DNA from: a virus
Virus record (IMG/VR): IMGVR_UViG_3300036861_000225
Coordinates: 1-54,260 of that record
Length of the DNA: 54,260 nt
Reading direction: 5' to 3' (one strand)
Below, piece after piece: positions 3,779-49,479 of this stretch (its first letter is position 1; every line of letters begins with the position of its first letter). A program made the position numbers and the translations under genes. The notes under the pieces are model-generated. The model was not told the DNA's origin. It saw only the letters and a list, made by a program, of their open reading frames with translations, and did no database searches.

Positions 3779-4194
3779 AGACCGCTGCCAGACTGGCGCT
3801 CTCGTGCATCCTCGCGCTGCTTGCGCTGAGCCTGCTGGTGCTGGGTCTTCAGGTGCGGGCCGCGCTCGCTGCCACGAACACCGACGCGCCGCCGCTGTGT
3901 CTGCCGGCGCCAATCGGTGCGGGCGGCGTGGCGCGCGTGGGCGTGTCGGCCAACGGGCAATGGATCTGGTGGGCGTGCCGACGAGCTGACAACTCGGTAC
4001 AGATGGTCCGCTACCTTGGCACGCGAGCCGTGACACTGCGCGCGGTCGGCGACAGGTTCGACACGATCTTGCGCAGCAGCGACCCGCTCGCCGCGGCACA
4101 GACCGCGCACCGGCGCTACGCCACTGTGTCGGCCACCGACCCCTCGCTCGCAGCTGTGTACGCCGACTACATCGCGAGCCTGAGCCTGCCCTGA
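3775..4194 (+). CDS. Membrane-anchored or secreted hypothetical protein, 139 aa
   Basis: ATG at 3775 overlaps the preceding stop (ATGA). Residues 1-30 form a positively charged then strongly hydrophobic stretch (CILALLALSLLVLGLQV), a signal peptide or membrane anchor, followed by a short soluble domain with WIWWAC. Export to the periplasm or inner-membrane anchoring is predicted. It lies directly upstream of terL and overlaps it (TGATG). No family recognised; superinfection exclusion is one possibility for such proteins but nothing here shows it. Confidence 0.65.
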   Translation: MKTAARLALSCILALLALSLLVLGLQVRAALAATNTDAPPLCLPAPIGAGGVARVGVSANGQWIWWACRRADNSVQMVRYLGTRAVTLRAVGDRFDTILRSSDPLAAAQTAHRRYATVSATDPSLAAVYADYIASLSLP

Positions 4195-5837
4195 TGGCCT
4201 ACGGTCCCCGCAAGGCAGCCAAGGCGAAAGCCTTTCCGGTGCTGCACGATCTGTCGGCCTACGCGAATCCTCCCCGCAAGCCCGGCACGAACCTGCGGCC
4301 GCTGCCCGAGTCCGCGCGCATCCCGGTGCGCATGGTCGACGCTGGTAACACGTTCGCGAAGCTGACACCGCTGGATGAGCTTTTTGACAAGCTCGCCAGC
4401 TACACGTACGACCCGCTCGGTTTCGTGCTGTGGGCGTTCCCGTGGGGCGAAGAGGGCACGTCGCTTGCCGACATGGTGGGCCCCGAGCCGTGGCAACGTG
4501 ACCAGCTCACGCGCATCGGCCAGCGGCTGCGCGAGGGCGGCGCCGACATCAGTGACGTCATCGAGGAAGACATCAGCAGCGGCCACGGCATCGGCAAGTC
4601 AGCCGAAGTCGCGTGGCTCATCCTCTGGGCGATCAGCACGCACGCCGACACCCGCGGCGTGGTAACCGCGAACACTGACACGCAGCTACGCACGAAGACG
4701 TGGGCCGAGTTGGGCAAGTGGTACCAGCTGTTCATCGGCAAGTCCATGTTCAAGTTCTCGGCCACGAGCATCACCATCGCGAACGACCCCGTGCGAGAGA
4801 AGTCGTGGCGGATCGATGCGATCCCCTGGAGCGCGGAGAACACCGAAGGCTTCGCCGGCTTGCACAACCAGGGCCGGCGCATCCTCGTGGTCTTCGACGA
4901 GGCAAGCTCGATCGATGACGCGATCTGGGAAGTGACCGAGGGCGCGCTCACCGACGCCAAGACGCAGATCATCTGGTGCCGATTCGGCAACCCCACCCGG
5001 ACCTCGGGGCAGTTCTTTCGGCGCTGCACGCAGCCCAAGCGCAACCACTACACCCGCGTGGACAGCCGCACCGTCAGCTTCACCAACAAGGGCCAGATCG
5101 CGGCGTGGGTGGACGACTACGGCGAGGACAGTGACTTCGTGCGCGTGCGCGTCAAGGGCCAGTTCCCCCGCGCCGGCTATGCGAACTTCATCAGCCCGGA
5201 ACAGGTCTTCAGCGCGCGCCGGCGCCGCGTGCCGCTCGTGACGTATCAGGCCTATCAGAAGGTGATCGCCGTGGACCCGGCGCGCTTCGGCGATGACTTC
5301 AGCGTCGTCACGTGCCGGCAAGGGCTCAAGGTGCATTGGCAAGTCGCGATTGGCGGGTTCGACGGCGTGGACCTTGCCGGCCGCGTGGCCGAGTTCGCGC
5401 GCAGCGAGACCGGGCGCATCAACTGCATCGTGTACGACGCGATCGGCAACGGCGCAGACTTCGACAGCGCGATCAAGCGCGTACCGAACCTGAACATCCC
5501 CTTGATCCCGGTCATGTGGGGCCAGCCCGCGAAGGACGACAAGCAGTACTTCAACCAGCGCAGCGAGTGTTGGGGGCGAATGCGCGACTGGCTCGACGAG
5601 GGCGAGATCCCGGACGAGGACACGCTCGCCGACGAGCTCGTGTCCCTGGACTACGGCTATGACGGCAAGTTCCGGATTCAACTTCAGAGCAAGAAGGACA
5701 TCAAGAAGAACGGCGGCAAGTCGCCCGACCGAGCCGATAGCCTCGCGCTCTCGTTCGTGCCAGACCTGATCGACCGCAGGGTCACGACAGCGCGCGCCCG
5801 GCCCGTCACCCGGCGCACCGTGGTCTGGAGCCGGTAG
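4194..5837 (+). CDS. terL: Terminase large subunit (packaging ATPase-nuclease)
   Basis: 547 aa. The N-terminal ATPase has Walker A SGHGIGKS (129-136) and Walker B ILVVFDEA (230-237, catalytic E after D). The C-terminal RNase H-like nuclease has AVDPARFGDD (D361), VYDAIGNG (D415) and PDRADSLALSF (D512/D515). The enzyme pumps DNA through the portal and cuts concatemers. Full length, with all catalytic motifs intact. The start overlaps the upstream stop. Confidence 0.95.
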   Translation: MAYGPRKAAKAKAFPVLHDLSAYANPPRKPGTNLRPLPESARIPVRMVDAGNTFAKLTPLDELFDKLASYTYDPLGFVLWAFPWGEEGTSLADMVGPEPWQRDQLTRIGQRLREGGADISDVIEEDISSGHGIGKSAEVAWLILWAISTHADTRGVVTANTDTQLRTKTWAELGKWYQLFIGKSMFKFSATSITIANDPVREKSWRIDAIPWSAENTEGFAGLHNQGRRILVVFDEASSIDDAIWEVTEGALTDAKTQIIWCRFGNPTRTSGQFFRRCTQPKRNHYTRVDSRTVSFTNKGQIAAWVDDYGEDSDFVRVRVKGQFPRAGYANFISPEQVFSARRRRVPLVTYQAYQKVIAVDPARFGDDFSVVTCRQGLKVHWQVAIGGFDGVDLAGRVAEFARSETGRINCIVYDAIGNGADFDSAIKRVPNLNIPLIPVMWGQPAKDDKQYFNQRSECWGRMRDWLDEGEIPDEDTLADELVSLDYGYDGKFRIQLQSKKDIKKNGGKSPDRADSLALSFVPDLIDRRVTTARARPVTRRTVVWSR

Positions 5838-36039: not shown

Positions 36040-36135
36040 TCACTCCCCATCCAAGTACCTCACTGCGCGCGAGGAACACTTGCCCGTCGATTGCGGCCGA
36101 CGGAACTTGCGCTCGAATTGCTCGTGAGGGGTCAT
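36040..36135 (-). CDS. Microprotein, 31 aa
   Basis: ATG at 36135 overlaps the stop of the upstream gene (ATGA). MTPHEQFERKFRRPQSTGKC is basic and hydrophilic. It lies 4 nt before the ATG of the 76-aa gene and could serve mainly for translational coupling. Weak case; too short for confident assignment. Confidence 0.4.
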   Translation of the reverse strand: MTPHEQFERKFRRPQSTGKCSSRAVRYLDGE

Positions 36136-36893
36136 GCCAGTAGCCTCCTAAATGCTTCGCCGCTCTCGACTTCGGACATGCTCCACTGAGCCCACGCCAA
36201 GCGCCGGAACATCGCGAGCCGCATGTCGTCGCGGCGGAGCGGCCCCTTCTTGAACTCACCTAGCGAATGGCACGCCAGCGCGCCGATCCACGATTGCATG
36301 CCGTAGAACACAGGCACGCCCATCATCAAAGCCTTGATCGCGGCGCCCGAGCTCCACGTCGCAACGCTCGATGCGCGCGCCAAGTCCTCTTCCAGCGTCG
36401 GGCCGTCCTTGTTCGTGCCGGGGTGCCGACGGATGCGCCCCTTGGTCGTGCTCACCGCGAGATTGAGCCAGCCGTCCGGTGCGCGCAGGCCGGGCTCGCC
36501 GATGCCGCGCTGCGCGAGGATGACGCATTCGCCGCCGGGCTTGCGCCACGGCGCGAGATTCACGCCCCACGAGTCCCAGCGCTCGGGGCCGCCATTCGGC
36601 CAACGGCCGGCGCCGTTGTGGTGGTTGTGCGCGATCGCGAACGACTGCTCGCCACGCCACTCCTTGCCCAGATAGCCGTTCTCCACGACGAGCACCTTCG
36701 CCTTCGCGGCCTCGAACTCGCGAGCGCGGGAGTGGCCTTCGCCCATGCGGTTCCACGTAACTATGAGGTCTTTAGAACTGGGATTCGCTACCATCCGGTC
36801 TGTGGGCGTGTAGCCAACGGCGCGCAGCCCCGCCATGAAGGCCTCGCGGCGGTAATGCAGGCCCGACCGGAACAGGACGACAGCGCGGCTCAC
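36132..36893 (-). CDS. Glycosyltransferase-like protein, 253 aa
   Basis: Begins MSRAVVLFRSGLHYRREAFM. AKVLVVENGYLGKEWRGEQS, GGECVILAQRGIGEPGLRAP and SVATWSSGAAIKALMMGVPV are shared in style with capsular polysaccharide or Kdo-type GT-B transferases. It sits between the HNH gene and the smaller proteins of the cluster. Assignment at fold level only. Confidence 0.6.
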   Translation of the reverse strand: MSRAVVLFRSGLHYRREAFMAGLRAVGYTPTDRMVANPSSKDLIVTWNRMGEGHSRAREFEAAKAKVLVVENGYLGKEWRGEQSFAIAHNHHNGAGRWPNGGPERWDSWGVNLAPWRKPGGECVILAQRGIGEPGLRAPDGWLNLAVSTTKGRIRRHPGTNKDGPTLEEDLARASSVATWSSGAAIKALMMGVPVFYGMQSWIGALACHSLGEFKKGPLRRDDMRLAMFRRLAWAQWSMSEVESGEAFRRLLA

Positions 36894-42503: not shown

Positions 42504-42769
42504 GCTTGCACCTCGCTGAATGCATCCGCGCCGATCTCGCACTTGTGCTGACGCTTGCTGCGCGCGTCGAAGAGCACGGACCGCTCGCCGCGGCCATCGG
42601 CTTGCGTGACACGCTGCCAGTACAGCCCCGCGGCGCCGCAGCGCTTGCACACGATGTCGTCCTCTTCGCCGAGTTCGGCGTAGTCGGGATCGTAGTCTTC
42701 GGAGAGCACGCCGTCTTCGTACGTGTGCCCCGCGTGCTCTCGGAGGTCTCTTGATCTGCCCACGTTCAC
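42500..42769 (-). CDS. Zinc-ribbon-like protein, 89 aa
   Basis: GTG at 42769 overlaps the polymerase stop (GTGA). An acidic N-terminal half (SEDYDPDYAELGEEDDIV) precedes CKRCGAAGLYW and, near the end, HKC, a likely zinc-binding set. Small phage proteins of this kind are common next to polymerase genes; function unknown. Confidence 0.68.
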   Translation of the reverse strand: MNVGRSRDLREHAGHTYEDGVLSEDYDPDYAELGEEDDIVCKRCGAAGLYWQRVTQADGRGERSVLFDARSKRQHKCEIGADAFSEVQA

Positions 42770-44943
42770 CCCTTCTCGTAGCGCTTGGTTGTGAACCCTG
42801 CCGCTGCGAGCGGCAAGCCCTGATTCCATCCTAAATCACTGCACATGAGTGTAGCAAGTGCTTCGTGCGAAAAAGCGTCCGTGTCGGGGGTTTCCGTGAC
42901 GAGCTCGTCGTGCACGCCGAAGATCACTTCGTAGCCGGCCGCTTCCGCAAGAGGTATGCCGCCTGCCAGTTGATCGCGAGCCACGGCTTGCGTGACGTTC
43001 TCGAATAGCTTGCCCCCGTAGGTCTTCGTCGGGCCCCATTGCTTCGTGTACGGGTTGAGCCCGATGAAACTGATCTTGTCGCTCTTGTCGATCGTCGGCG
43101 AGAAGTAGCACAGCGCCCGGCCGCTGGGCAGACCGATGCGCAGCCAAGAGCCATCGCGGCGTACCTTGAGCTTGCGCACTTGGAGAGTGACACTGGGCGT
43201 CGCGATCGCGGTACGCACGGCGTTCTCCAGTTCCTTCCAGAGCGAAGAGATAGCGGGATGCGCCTTGCGCCACAAGCGTTTGATCGCGTCGCACGCGATG
43301 AAGGTCTTTTCGGAGAGACCGTAGCGCGCCTTGAACTTCGCGGCCTCCGGGTCTTTCGATCCCTCGGGAACCGTGTCATACAACCACCGCAGGAAGCCCT
43401 CTGCCTCTTCCTTCTCGGTCTCGGGCAACACATCCCACACGGCTTCCGTCATGGCCGCGAGATCGATGCCGTAGGTCGCAGCCCCGGTGATCCACGCGCC
43501 AACGCCGCCTTGGTACTGAAACATCAGTTCTTCGACTTTGCCGATCTGGCGCTGCTCCTTGTTCACGTCATCAGGGCTGACATTAAACGACTTCGCGTAG
43601 GCGAGCTTGTAGAGGTCGGGCCCCTCGCCCGTGTCGTAGTCGCGGAACGCTTGCAGCTTCCAGTCCTCACCGGCGAGCCAAGCTGCGACCCGGCCCTCGA
43701 TGTTCGCCAAGTCGGCGATGACCAGCTTGCGGCCCGGCGGCGCGATGATGGCGCCACGCACGGCCGCACCGGCGAGCGCGCGCACGTTGCTGTGGGTCAG
43801 GTCTTCCGCGCCCGCGAGCATCGCCTCGATGCCCGTGGTGACGTACTCGTGGATGTGGTGATCCTTGATCGCGGTCTTGTCGATGCCGTGCCACTGCGCG
43901 ATGACGTCGACCGGCGGGCGCATCAGATTGCCCGGCTGGAACATGCGGTGAGCCCAGCGGCCCGTGCGGCTCGCGCCGCAAAACTGCTGGAGACCGCGCA
44001 GCCGGCCGTCGCTGCTCACGCCGTTGAGCAACGCCGTGTACTTCGATGCGCTGTTCATGGACGCTTGCAGCCGGATCGCGAGCAGGTCGCGCACGCTCTG
44101 AGGCAGGTCCGGGTCGTTCATGCGCCGCTCAAGCGTGTCGGCCTTCATGTCGGGCAGCGTCACGCCATGCGCGTCGAGCACGTAGGCCAACAGCGCATCG
44201 CGCTGCGTGGTGCTCGCGACTGCACCCTCGGTGATCTCCGAGGTCTGGTCCGCGAGCTTGTCGAGTGAGGATTTGGCCGCGCGCACCGCGGCGCGAGCGA
44301 GATCCTGGTCGACGAACGCCCCGCGGGCGTTGATCTTCAGGTCAAGGTGCCACAGCGCGAGCTCGGCGCCCTTGTAGTTCCACATTGGCACGCGCCGGTG
44401 CACCTCGCGCATCGCCTCGATGTCCTGGCCAGCGTAGGCGACGAACTCGGCCCACTCCGCGGGGTGCGTCTTCGCGGTCGCGCGCCGCGTGCCGTGCTTC
44501 TTGAAGAACGCATCGTTCTGCGGTTTGCAGAAGAGGTGGATCAGGTTGCGACCGCCGGCTGACTTGCGCTTGCCCTGGTCGAGGCGCAGCACCTCGCCGA
44601 GCGTGCCCAGCGCGCCGGGCAACCCGTGGCAGTAGGCTTGCACCATCGTGTCGCGGCGCCGGTGCATCGGGATGCGCGCCGCCACCTCGGGCATCGCGTG
44701 TTCCAACACAACGAAGTCGAAGGCGCCGCCATTGTGGAACCAGATCAGGCACTCAGGATCGTCGATCGACTCGTCGAGCGCCGTGGGCATGCGTTTGCCG
44801 CTGGTGATGTCCCACACGTCAGTCGCGCCGTCGTCGATCGCGTAGGCCCAGATCATCACCTCGGCATCTTCGGCGTATCGGTGCGTGCCGTGGGTGATCG
44901 GGACCGGAGAGAAGGTCTCCAGATCGGAGAAGTTGTCACGCAC
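42766..44943 (-). CDS. DNA polymerase, family A, with 3'-5' exonuclease domain
   Basis: 725 aa. Exonuclease: SDLETFS (D7, E9), NGGAFDF (D76), YAGQDIEAM (D174). Polymerase: motif A VIADLANIEGRVAAW (D at about 411; the usual SQIELR is replaced by ANIEGR), motif B region QIGKVEELMFQYQGGVG, motif C GVHDELV (H678, D679, E680). Full length and catalytically intact; replicates the phage genome. The ANIEGR variant occurs in a phage subfamily. Confidence 0.93.
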   Translation of the reverse strand: MRDNFSDLETFSPVPITHGTHRYAEDAEVMIWAYAIDDGATDVWDITSGKRMPTALDESIDDPECLIWFHNGGAFDFVVLEHAMPEVAARIPMHRRRDTMVQAYCHGLPGALGTLGEVLRLDQGKRKSAGGRNLIHLFCKPQNDAFFKKHGTRRATAKTHPAEWAEFVAYAGQDIEAMREVHRRVPMWNYKGAELALWHLDLKINARGAFVDQDLARAAVRAAKSSLDKLADQTSEITEGAVASTTQRDALLAYVLDAHGVTLPDMKADTLERRMNDPDLPQSVRDLLAIRLQASMNSASKYTALLNGVSSDGRLRGLQQFCGASRTGRWAHRMFQPGNLMRPPVDVIAQWHGIDKTAIKDHHIHEYVTTGIEAMLAGAEDLTHSNVRALAGAAVRGAIIAPPGRKLVIADLANIEGRVAAWLAGEDWKLQAFRDYDTGEGPDLYKLAYAKSFNVSPDDVNKEQRQIGKVEELMFQYQGGVGAWITGAATYGIDLAAMTEAVWDVLPETEKEEAEGFLRWLYDTVPEGSKDPEAAKFKARYGLSEKTFIACDAIKRLWRKAHPAISSLWKELENAVRTAIATPSVTLQVRKLKVRRDGSWLRIGLPSGRALCYFSPTIDKSDKISFIGLNPYTKQWGPTKTYGGKLFENVTQAVARDQLAGGIPLAEAAGYEVIFGVHDELVTETPDTDAFSHEALATLMCSDLGWNQGLPLAAAGFTTKRYEKG

Positions 44944-45262
44944 CGCGCAGCTCCAGTTCCACGATCTCCATGTCGCCGCGGATGCGCGGCGCTGGCGGCG
45001 CGGTGACGATCATTTCGTCGTAGTCCTCGGGGCCGTCGAAGTAACTGTGGCTCACGCCCTGGTTGCGTTCCCACTTGCCTTGCAGCCACATCGTCAGTGC
45101 ATTGCGCGCCGATTGCAGCGTGAAGAACAGACGCGGATTCTTGTCGTGCGGCTTGTCTAGTTCGTCGCCCGGGATCCAGTGGGACCGCCCGCCAGGGGTG
45201 CGGTTCAGCCTATGCGGCATCCATTCACCGGTCGGCTTGTGCCTGATCGCGAAGACCTTCAT
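44936..45262 (-). CDS. Hypothetical phage protein, 108 aa, downstream of the structured RNA
   Basis: ATG at 45262 with a strong AGGAGGT 8 nt upstream. MKVFAIRHKPTGEWMPHR begins a family of small phage proteins I know only as hypothetical; PRLFFTLQSARNALTMWLQG follows. Overlaps the polymerase gene by 8 nt, so its translation and that of the polymerase may depend on the structured leader at 45263-45455. Confidence 0.75.
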   Translation of the reverse strand: MKVFAIRHKPTGEWMPHRLNRTPGGRSHWIPGDELDKPHDKNPRLFFTLQSARNALTMWLQGKWERNQGVSHSYFDGPEDYDEMIVTAPPAPRIRGDMEIVELELRGA

Positions 45263-45455
45263 TGCATGACCTCCTGCATTTTGGTGGGGGACCGCGCAGA
45301 CGGTTCTTACTGCGGCGATGCACCGGGGCCCAGCAAGCCGAGCCATCCCTCACCAAAATGCTGCCCCTTACGGGGGCAAGTCGCCAGTGCTGTAACTCAC
45401 TGGGGACCGGCCGCAGCCGGTGGCTTCAGGCCTGCGGGTAGCAGGCCGTTGGAAG
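45263..45455 (-). ncRNA. Structured RNA candidate / riboswitch-like leader between ssDNA-binding and polymerase-side genes
   Basis: No gene is seen in this 193-nt gap. In transcript order (minus strand) it holds GGCCTGC/GCAGGCC (7 bp, 45447-45429), ACCGGC/GCCGGT with a tetraloop (45421-45406), CCAGTG/CACTGG (45403-45384), TGCCCC/GGGGCA (45378-45362), and a closing 11-bp helix GCATTTTGGTG/CACCAAAATGC (45361-45351 with 45286-45276). That helix encloses 64 nt with at least two further hairpins (GGCTC/GGGCC and CGCAG/CTGCG). It ends directly against the AGGAGG ribosome binding site. Confidence 0.6.
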
Positions 45456-46097
45456 TCAGCTCAAGTCGTCGGCGTCGCTGCCGTCCGCCACTTCGCCGAA
45501 CGCCTCGGTCACCGGCGCCGTGGCGCCGCTGAACGCATCGCCGTCGCGCAGGCGCTGGATGACCATGAGCGTTGCGCGCAGGCCCTTGCCGGCCTTGTTG
45601 TCCTGCGCCCAGAGCTCGACTTGCGCGTTGACGTACATGCCCGAGTAGATGCGGCCGGCCTTGCCCGACAGCAGCGCGCCGCTGGCGCGGTCGTAGACCG
45701 GCGACAGGTCCGTGTCGATCACGATCGGGCGCTGCTGGTCCTCGGTGCGGTGCGAGGCCAAGATCCAGACGCCTTCCACGTCCTTGCGCGCACCGTCTTG
45801 CCAGCAGCAGCCCTTGGGGTCGGGCAGGATGTTGGCGAGGTGCATCTTGGCCTTGTCGTTCCACTTCTCGGTGGCGACCTTGACCATCGCGTCATCGATG
45901 AACTTCTTGGCGGCCACCGGCGAGCCGACGACCTTCTTGTCGATCACGAACTGCGCGAGGCTTTGCGGGCCGATGTGGAACGAGGCGGACCAACGCCGCT
46001 TGTCGTTCTCGCGCTGCTTCTGACCCTGGAAATACTCCGGGGCGTCGAGCTTGGGATAGGAGAGGCGAACGTCTTTCAGGAGAACAACGAGACCCAT
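45456..46097 (-). CDS. DUF2815-type single-stranded DNA-binding protein
   Basis: 213 aa from ATG 46097 with AAAGGAAAG upstream. VVLLKDVRLSYPKLDAPEYF, RRWSASFHIGP, GKAGRIYSGMYVNAQVELWA and an acidic tail (GSDADDLS) match the DUF2815 family, phage proteins with an SSB-like OB fold. Expected to coat ssDNA during replication and to partner with the RecB-like nuclease and polymerase in the same operon. Confidence 0.82.
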   Translation of the reverse strand: MGLVVLLKDVRLSYPKLDAPEYFQGQKQRENDKRRWSASFHIGPQSLAQFVIDKKVVGSPVAAKKFIDDAMVKVATEKWNDKAKMHLANILPDPKGCCWQDGARKDVEGVWILASHRTEDQQRPIVIDTDLSPVYDRASGALLSGKAGRIYSGMYVNAQVELWAQDNKAGKGLRATLMVIQRLRDGDAFSGATAPVTEAFGEVADGSDADDLS

Positions 46098-46152
46098 GAT
46101 GGGCTTTCCTTTCGGGTTTGTGCAAACGGCTTACGGCTTGCGGGTTGGGGAA

Positions 46153-46503
46153 CTAGAAACCGGACGGCTGGGCGACGGCGCGCGTGAGCGCCATCAACCC
46201 CTCTTGAAAGTGCGTGCGCGCGATCGCGGCCCAGCGCTCGGGCTCGGCGCGGTTCAGGCGTGCTTTCTCGGCGTGTGCGCGCTGAAACGCTGTCGGCGGG
46301 TCGCCTTCCGCAACAGTTTCAGTTTCGCCTCGATCGATGATTTCTTTCTGCGCGTACAGGTTCATGCCGGTCCGGTGCCGGACCTTCGCGATCAGTGCCT
46401 CGATCTCGTGACCCTTGGCCTTGATCTCGTTCATCAGCGCTGCCTCGGCTTCATTCAGCTGGCGATAGCCCGTGATCTTGGGTTGGGTGAAGGTTTCCAT
46501 CAT
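46153..46503 (-). CDS. Acb2/Tad1-type cyclic-nucleotide sponge (anti-CBASS/anti-Thoeris)
   Basis: 116 aa from ATG 46503 (AGGAG upstream; ATGA overlap). ITGYRQLNEAEAALMNEIKA with KGHEIEALIAKVRHRTG, and the closing RWAAIARTHFQEGLMALTRA, then VAQPSGF, reproduce the Acb2 hairpin signature. Acb2 proteins form hexamers that sequester CBASS and Thoeris signal nucleotides. A 30-residue polar insertion (from NLYAQKEII to NRAEPE) separates the two helices. Early expression before the ssDNA-binding gene would suit a counter-defence role. Confidence 0.85.
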   Translation of the reverse strand: MMETFTQPKITGYRQLNEAEAALMNEIKAKGHEIEALIAKVRHRTGMNLYAQKEIIDRGETETVAEGDPPTAFQRAHAEKARLNRAEPERWAAIARTHFQEGLMALTRAVAQPSGF

Positions 46504-49267: not shown

Positions 49268-49272
49268 GCGTT

Positions 49273-49361
49273 TTGGTTGGGCGCGCGGTTCGTGGTGCAC
49301 TAACCGGGAATCGACCACAGCATTAGCGAGGATCCATCACCGGAGCCACGCGCCCAACCAA
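49273..49361. repeat. 13-bp inverted repeat in the divergent control region
   Basis: TTGGTTGGGCGCG (49273-49285) and CGCGCCCAACCAA (49349-49361) are perfect inverted repeats 63 nt apart, just upstream of the leftward promoter. The gap of 49205-49517 contains no gene; it holds this repeat, the leftward promoter, a terminator-like hairpin, a purine run (AGG)n at 49443-49465 and the rightward promoter. Confidence 0.7.
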
Positions 49362-49376
49362 AGACTCGAAAAAGAA

Positions 49377-49398
49377 GCCCGGGACCGAAGCCCCGGGC
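49377..49398 (-). terminator. UUCG-capped terminator between the divergent promoters
   Basis: In minus-strand sense a 9-bp stem (GCCCGGGGC/GUCCCGGGC, one G-U pair) closed by UUCG is followed by a U-rich run (TTCTTTTTC). It would stop antisense leftward transcription arriving from the 49518-53097 block before it reaches the leftward promoter region. Confidence 0.65.
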
Positions 49399-49479
49399 CT
49401 TTGCGCTGGCAACTGCTTACCTGCGGCGTCGGGAACAAGGACAGGAGGAGGAGGAGGAGGGAGGGTTCACCCGACGCGC

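Follow-up and report, generated by a model that had tools for sequence, protein, structure and literature searches.

The viral DNA analysed here (54,260 nucleotides, the window) raises the question of what is contained in a gap of 193 bases on its minus strand, which has the gene for a single-stranded DNA-binding protein (SSB) on one side and the ATG of the next gene, at 45262, on the other. The features concerned are given below from high to low coordinates; H1, H2, the ribosome-binding site and the six-codon frame are read from the sequence itself.

45456-46097, minus strand: gene for an Enc34/Gp2.5-like ssDNA-binding protein (SSB, DUF2815; Pfam, 70.8 bits)
45429-45447, minus strand: hairpin H1, 7 bp, GGCCUGC UACCC GCAGGCC, 8 nt past the SSB stop
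45406-45421, minus strand: hairpin H2, 6 bp, ACCGGC UGCG GCCGGU
45384-45403, minus strand: hairpin H3, 6 bp, CCAGUG AGUUACAG CACUGG
45361-45379, minus strand: hairpin H4, 7 bp with one U-G, loop CGUAA, then CAUUUUG; terminator-like
45276-45361, minus strand: long helix, perfect over 11 bp, arms 45361-45351 and 45286-45276
45306-45337, minus strand: inner core hairpin of the minimum-energy structure, carrying GCAGUAA (45313-45307)
45267-45458, minus strand: closing helix predicted in the minimum-energy structures of 231 and 266 nt, UGACUUCC (45458-45451) with GGAGGUCA (45274-45267)
45270-45275, minus strand: AGGAGG ribosome-binding site, directly adjoining the long helix
45259-45279, minus strand: putative six-codon open reading frame, ATGCAGGAGGTCATGCAATGA
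44936-45262, minus strand: next gene, 108 amino acids, ATG at 45262, overlapping the polymerase reading frame
42766-44943, minus strand: family A DNA polymerase (Pfam DNA_pol_A, 39.6 bits)

The next gene, scanned in the longer 136-residue form of its reading frame, has no Pfam match, and a query without its first codon found, in viral contigs, a single close relative. When this reading frame is extended upstream in frame, the added part shows no relation to the sequence of the close relative L018, and coding within the gap is therefore unlikely. The six-codon frame starts inside the 3' arm of the long helix and its TGA overlaps the ATG of the next gene. Elsewhere in the same operon, a small reading frame (46153-46503, minus strand) matches the Pfam Acb2/Tad1 hairpin domain at 57.2 bits and is a possible candidate for an anti-defence sponge protein encoded among the replication genes.

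A sequence-only reading of this DNA had described four serial hairpins of 6-7 bp followed by a perfect 11-bp helix, placed directly beside the AGGAGG of a gene that overlaps the polymerase frame, and all of these elements are indeed found on the minus strand. The long helix continues inward of the 11 bp, past one A.C mismatch, with five more pairs (one of them G-U). Its 5' arm includes the U-tract that follows H4. In the predicted closing helix, UGACUUCC begins with the SSB stop codon UGA, and its pairing with GGAGGUCA would make the ribosome-binding site inaccessible. For the 231-nt region the folding energy is -115.2 kcal/mol, with a z score of -5.07 and none of 200 shuffles as good, and the opposite strand gives -2.63, with one shuffle in 200 as good. 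Taken singly, H1, H3 and H4 reach z scores of -3.53, -2.63 and -2.56; the helix domain reaches -3.31 over 91 nt and -2.46 over 103 nt (5 of 200 shuffles as good). H2 alone is unremarkable (z -0.94, 28 of 200 shuffles as good), and the long helix by itself is not extreme, its score being attained by one of 40 shuffles of its region; the case for structure thus rests on the region as a whole. On this basis the presence of a structured RNA between the SSB gene and the next gene is confirmed.

This RNA belongs to no class that we could recognise, as the sequence-only reading had also stated. The 4227 Rfam models gave no match at gathering thresholds in the window, and at E ≤ 10 the element attracted just mir-138 and CRISPR-DR36, both far under their thresholds. 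ARAGORN found no tRNA gene in the window; the core within the long helix is not tRNA-like, with no RF00005 match at E ≤ 10 and no call by ARAGORN relaxed down to 70%. A nucleotide search of the gap against phages and plasmids returned one match of 24 bases and one of 23, which were taken as chance, and the pattern CGTAAGN{2,8}GCATTTTGRTGAG occurred in two contigs, in L019 itself and in a chance match inside a coding region of L030. A hammerhead, the known riboswitches and an attachment site were set aside from general knowledge. The RNA motifs named after DUF2800 and DUF2815 come from earlier surveys.

Comparison with close relatives separates a retained frame from a changing interior. The nearest relative, L018 (on the same contig as L001, L002 and L035), was aligned by blastn with positions 44900-46100 of the window; it matches the SSB gene at 93.9% identity and, at 88.9%, a second stretch that begins with the 3' arm of the helix, covers the next gene and enters the polymerase; between the two nothing aligns. 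L018 nevertheless has at this place a mismatch-free helix, with 19 Watson-Crick and two G-U pairs, which keeps the outer UUUUGGUG/CACCAAAA of the window and differs inwards on both arms. Helices ending in UUUUG/CAAAA stand at the equivalent place in L018, L019, L021 and L039. In the case of L019, whose polymerase is 62% identical over the alignment (57% in the best segment), the gap can be aligned with that of the window. Over 40 pairs in the MAFFT alignment, 25 are the same, six are changed on both sides (one in H2, one in H3, three in H4 and one in the long helix), one is changed on one side, seven are broken (three in H1, two in H2, two in the helix) and one falls on a gap; with two sequences, this is a count of compensatory changes and not a statistical test of covariation.

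The sequence-only reading had looked to relatives for unbroken stems and for compensatory changes in the long helix, and L019 bears it out in part. H3 keeps all six pairs, and H4 has three of its six counted pairs changed on both sides and none broken, one further pair, which has a base in common with the helix, being left out for that reason. Most of the outer helix survives, with two of 15 pairs broken, one of which is the window's own mismatch. H2 fares worse, since two of its six pairs are broken and one is gapped, and so does H1, with three of seven broken in the MAFFT register; L019 has a 7-bp hairpin of its own there, with a loop one base shorter.

The arrangement is not confined to these relatives. 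Some other phages with the same polymerase family show the same order: SSB stop codon, GC-rich hairpin, a U-tract that is the 5' arm of a long helix, and then a ribosome-binding site or start codon. For counting, we defined the layout strictly as a GC hairpin past the SSB stop, with UUU a few bases on and a helix of at least nine Watson-Crick pairs in which the U-tract pairs with AAA; this definition was made post hoc. From 95 regions downstream of SSB genes, of up to 330 bases each, 79 remained after reduction by shared 12-mers, still including related pairs (the window and L001, L085 and L089). Twelve of the 79 show the strict layout, the window among them with 12 pairs counted, and 67 do not; shuffling gives 0.03 per set (100 shuffles). 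In 24 of the 79 regions, where about two are expected, the best helix exceeds all 40 shuffles, and 16 of these 24 helices have UUU/AAA ends; the window is not one of the 24. The strands also differ. In the 1.06 Mb of loci, a helix that has UUU/AAA ends and follows a GC hairpin accounts for 21 of 51 cases where the strand is that of the SSB and polymerase genes, compared with three of 59 for the opposite one; among the 21, two (L083 8172-8260 and L086 1801-1865) seem due to chance. In all, 28 helices of 13-22 Watson-Crick pairs were listed, some of them of another layout; 16 loci were omitted as redundant from this listing and from the strand count. A count of G-U against A-C combinations on the long helices (22 against 6, with two of 24 helices giving nothing) was not used, being biased by a search that allowed G-U.

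Prophages and cultured phages lay outside the sequences from which the pattern was defined and were judged by eye. Among six prophage SSB loci, hairpin and helix are present in L175, L176 and L180 (the last without a UUU run in its U-tract) and absent in L173 and L177; L174, which reads like L064, does not count as independent. Folding the gaps of ten cultured phages revealed the layout in two of the same species, BPP-1 and vB_BbrP_003, so that the group includes a model phage. In BPP-1, where the element occupies 36134-36205 of NC_005357.1, the arms CGCUUUGGCUGGGGCG/CGCCCCAGCCAAAGCG follow a GC hairpin and precede bbp41. By the same inspection it was not seen in APSE-1, BcepC6B, 606R2, YeP5, Acinetobacter 4316, PCA1, BL94 or Phobos; BL94 has an 8-bp helix adjoining a start codon.

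The link of the layout to the 3' side of the SSB gene is no weaker than that to the polymerase. It also follows the SSB gene in L045, L052 and L064, in which the polymerase does not come until 1.1-1.9 kb later, and it occurs at another junction in L085 (2573-2669). The outer letters UUUGGUG/CACCAAA recur in distant phages.

Several observations were made alongside these. The window has a second arrangement of hairpin and helix on its minus strand (49272-49400), composed of a terminator-like hairpin of 11 pairs (49400-49375) and a helix of 16 Watson-Crick pairs, TTTGGTTGGGCGCGTGG/CCGCGCGCCCAACCAAA (49362-49272); it lies upstream of a TTGACA spotted by eye, and a promoter scan reported none. In L041 (1321-1503) the arms contain GGUGAUC/GAUCACC, the letters of the 16S rRNA 3' end, which raises the idea of a contact with the ribosome. 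L078 has a further inverted repeat (4569-4620), followed by ACCCGCAGTAACCCC, upstream of its SSB gene.

What the helices enclose varies widely. Their interiors measure 3 to 139 bases and contain short loops, tRNA-like domains or a structured element that we call R1. Some cores are as short as 3-13 nt (L015, L052, L033, L175). The prophages L175 and L176, whose SSBs are 93% identical, have the hairpin and the outer 8 bp in common and enclose 13 and 57 bases, respectively. The cores of L078 and L095 match the tRNA family RF00005 at 45.6 and 33.1 bits (threshold 29), and that of L056 resembles tRNA-Sec below threshold (25.7 against 47 bits). With introns allowed and at full threshold, ARAGORN called three of 28 helices (L078, L095 and L100), both window helices being among those tested; at 70% it called 13 of the 28, several on the wrong strand. 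Infernal did not report the L100 core, and plain ARAGORN called none in 17 loci that included L095 and L056 and excluded L078 and L100. In the tRNA-like domains of L078 (5350-5482) and L095 (5896-6007) the acceptor stem continues into the long helix, and the anticodon arm of L078 has a much longer insert. Finding tRNA-like cores next to the start site of a polymerase was unexpected.

R1 was recognised in the cores of L019, L021 and L085 (2573-2669), where in all three a closing helix surrounds CCAGCGG, a hairpin and GUCGCAGUAAC. With the further matches from scanning viral contigs for the pattern, it is present in 15 contigs as ten distinct sequences, nine of which were used to build a covariance model. 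Members score 56.9-81.2 bits, all being in the model or identical to a sequence in it, and the next best score in 82 loci is 17.9. Pairing of the inner hairpin is found in 45 of 49 cells, where shuffling gives 28.6 (none of 5000 reaches the observed value), and six of its seven positions have changed on both sides. For the closing helix the count is 80 of 81, where shuffling gives 76.2 (nine of 5000 reach it), with two of nine positions so changed; L085 was excluded from both counts. For L129, the one member compared with Rfam, nothing matched at E ≤ 10; that search, run on the window, L056, L078, L095 and L129, named no family for the window either. In the open-access literature, judged on titles and abstract openings, we recognised no account of R1 or of the layout. 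From the comparison of its members, R1 is well supported as a new covarying structured RNA family of uncultured phages.

In 12 of the 15 contigs the closing helix of R1 starts 6-10 bases past a stop codon. No clear Shine-Dalgarno sequence precedes the first long reading frame past R1 in L019, L129, L131, L136 and L137; one is present in L126, L158 and L085, and in L125, L132, L133 and L134 the first reading frame of more than 80 codons, 88 bases on, has GGAG. An identical core of 71 nt stands in different flanks in L125 (7758-7828) and L129 (2984-3054), which indicates that the R1 core travels or is swapped as a whole. The window core has in common with R1 just its position and GCAGUAA, which is also found in the cores of L019, L021 and L085; against the model the window element gave no hit at E ≤ 10 and at best 4.3 bits with filters off, including three non-standard pairs, and so we do not call it a member. 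L018 scores 6.7 bits. Outside the viral contigs, the R1 pattern gave three matches in 369 genomes of one class, taken as chance because a reversed-pattern control also gave one; the model found none in one Achromobacter genome (150 of 5732 candidates scored), and 50,697 phage records held no match covering 80%. L159, a 19-base pattern match inside a coding frame, was dropped.

The position of the helix relative to start codons bears on function. In L019, L039 and L095 an ATG at the place matching the start of ATGCAGGAGGTCATGCAATGA is, by homology, the inferred start of the polymerase, and there the CAAAAUG of the 3' arm pairs with CAUUUUG or similar. In the window and L018 the AUG is still in the arm, and a small gene with its own AGGAGG stands between helix and polymerase. 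By reading, the arm and a Shine-Dalgarno sequence overlap or adjoin each other in L053, L085, L089, L018 and the window, and weakly so in L056. The minimum-energy structure of the window pairs AGGAGG with UGACUUCC, at a mean probability of 0.53 over the start region (5 of 60 shuffles as high), a predicted pairing that would couple the next gene to translation of the SSB. Among 12 cases examined for pairing between stop and start regions, BPP-1 reaches 0.28 (3 of 60 shuffles) and L176 a faint 0.11 (5 of 60); values are near zero in most relatives, L085 (0.12) is no higher than its shuffles, and L053 was dropped since the wrong stop had been located. This pairing is thus not conserved.

Considering the arrangement of these parts, the element of the window probably helps to set the amounts of SSB and polymerase protein. 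We tentatively propose, with a confidence that stays a little below even, that it acts as an intercistronic RNA gate which favours SSB over the replication genes downstream and is opened by cleavage or translation. The proposal builds on the anatomy, the recurrence and the pairing potential observed in these loci. H4 would serve as a weak terminator and, above all, as a protector of the 3' end of the SSB mRNA, so that much SSB would be made. On RNA that reads through, the helix would keep ribosomes off the gene on the polymerase side until the start site is freed by a double-strand-specific cut (by RNase III, or by RNase P in the case of tRNA-like cores) or until ribosomes arriving at the SSB stop open the helix. 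The core would be an exchangeable insert. A protein needed in bulk would thereby lie upstream of a protective, weakly terminating hairpin, with the polymerase side hindered until the cut or opening; the layout bears on how temperate phages set abundant SSB and scarce polymerase from one operon.

The replacement of the interior with retention of the outer helix, between the window and L018 and again between L175 and L176, counts in favour of such a gate, as do the polymerase AUGs placed by homology within the 3' arm of L019, L039 and L095 and the Shine-Dalgarno sequences at the arm elsewhere. The excess of the layout and of long helices over shuffles, the strand bias, the pair counts against L019 and the presence of the layout in BPP-1 speak for it too. 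Against it, 67 of the 79 regions and eight of the ten cultured phages do not show the layout, whose strict definition was post hoc. The AGGAGG of the window lies outside the long helix, the pairing predicted to hide it is not conserved, and the L019 polymerase frame is open upstream through the helix to a GTG at 3896, so that its start in the arm rests on homology. Termination, cleavage and the effect on translation are the steps that we infer, and the first of them is doubtful, given U-tracts of three to five U and the missing UUU run of L180; terminator-like sites such as H4 number five in 4.7 kb, against 4.3 expected as background. The recurring UUUGGUG/CACCAAA also suggests recognition of a particular sequence, something that RNase III would not require.

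Other explanations share part of this evidence. A leaky terminator with mRNA-stabilising hairpins alone, reducing transcription past the SSB gene and protecting the 3' end while the helix has no role in translation, would agree with the flagging of H4 and with the association of hairpin before helix; base pairing around the start of the next gene, together with the same short U-tracts and L180, makes it an unlikely account. Recognition of the outer letters would be at home in a translational operator on which the phage SSB or polymerase acts, and binding of a protein to the window RNA is possible. For this there is the position ahead of replication genes and the precedent of T4, where gp43 binds a hairpin near its own start codon and gp32 binds a pseudoknot (PMC3014915). 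We give the operator a low probability, since the layout stands at other junctions as well (L085 2573-2669, L053 2260-2369) and cores are replaced between close relatives. A broader reading, in which a new class of intercistronic RNA has a fixed frame of hairpin, U-tract helix and start site, and carries exchangeable functional cores, tRNA mimics and R1 included, that bring the stop codon beside the next start codon and recruit or hand over ribosomes, in keeping with the five R1 contigs where no clear Shine-Dalgarno sequence is seen, seems to us improbable, if slightly less so than the operator.

The tRNA cores of L078 (45.6 bits) and L095 (33.1 bits) and the high conservation of R1 would suit an embedded small RNA, the helix being a leader-trailer stem from which a tRNA-like, R1 or other core is released as a stable trans-acting RNA; cores of 3-13 nt speak against this, and we rate it marginally lower than an operator. 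A DNA-level element, either a small mobile or recombination-linker repeat or a structured single-strand origin, could explain the 71-nt R1 core in different flanks and the core replacement between the window and L018, and is nonetheless very improbable, because the compensatory and G-U changes in R1 favour an RNA of the gene strand, whose direction the order of hairpin and helix follows. The sequence-only reading had likened the element to a riboswitch or protein-binding leader controlling the polymerase. A structured leader adjoining a ribosome-binding site does invite the first idea, which we now find scarcely credible: the core is replaced in the nearest relative, which is not expected of a ligand-binding domain, the layout is tied to the 3' side of the SSB gene, and Rfam has no match. 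That interpretation as a whole is therefore partly supported.

All together, the gate that we propose can be placed among known RNA elements. The RNase III processing stems of phage mRNAs, as in the early RNA of T7 and the N leader of lambda, are likewise long intercistronic or leader helices beside a ribosome-binding site; exchangeable tRNA-like or R1 cores and a GC hairpin fused through its U-tract are features of the present layout and are not known from those stems, and cleavage here is putative. The leader-trailer helices of rRNA operons also enclose an RNA between two arms, whereas a mature RNA from the window element is putative. H4 resembles an intrinsic terminator in its GC hairpin and U-tract, and differs in that the tract runs for three to five U before a G and is itself an arm of a second helix. 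The cores of L078 and L095 exceed the threshold of the tRNA family, unlike the window core, and their acceptor stem, unlike that of a tRNA, runs into the long helix. As in the operators of T4 genes 43 and 32, an RNA structure stands at the start site of a phage polymerase or SSB; those operators are described as leaders of single genes (PMC3014915), whereas the layout described here is found at several junctions and with different cores.
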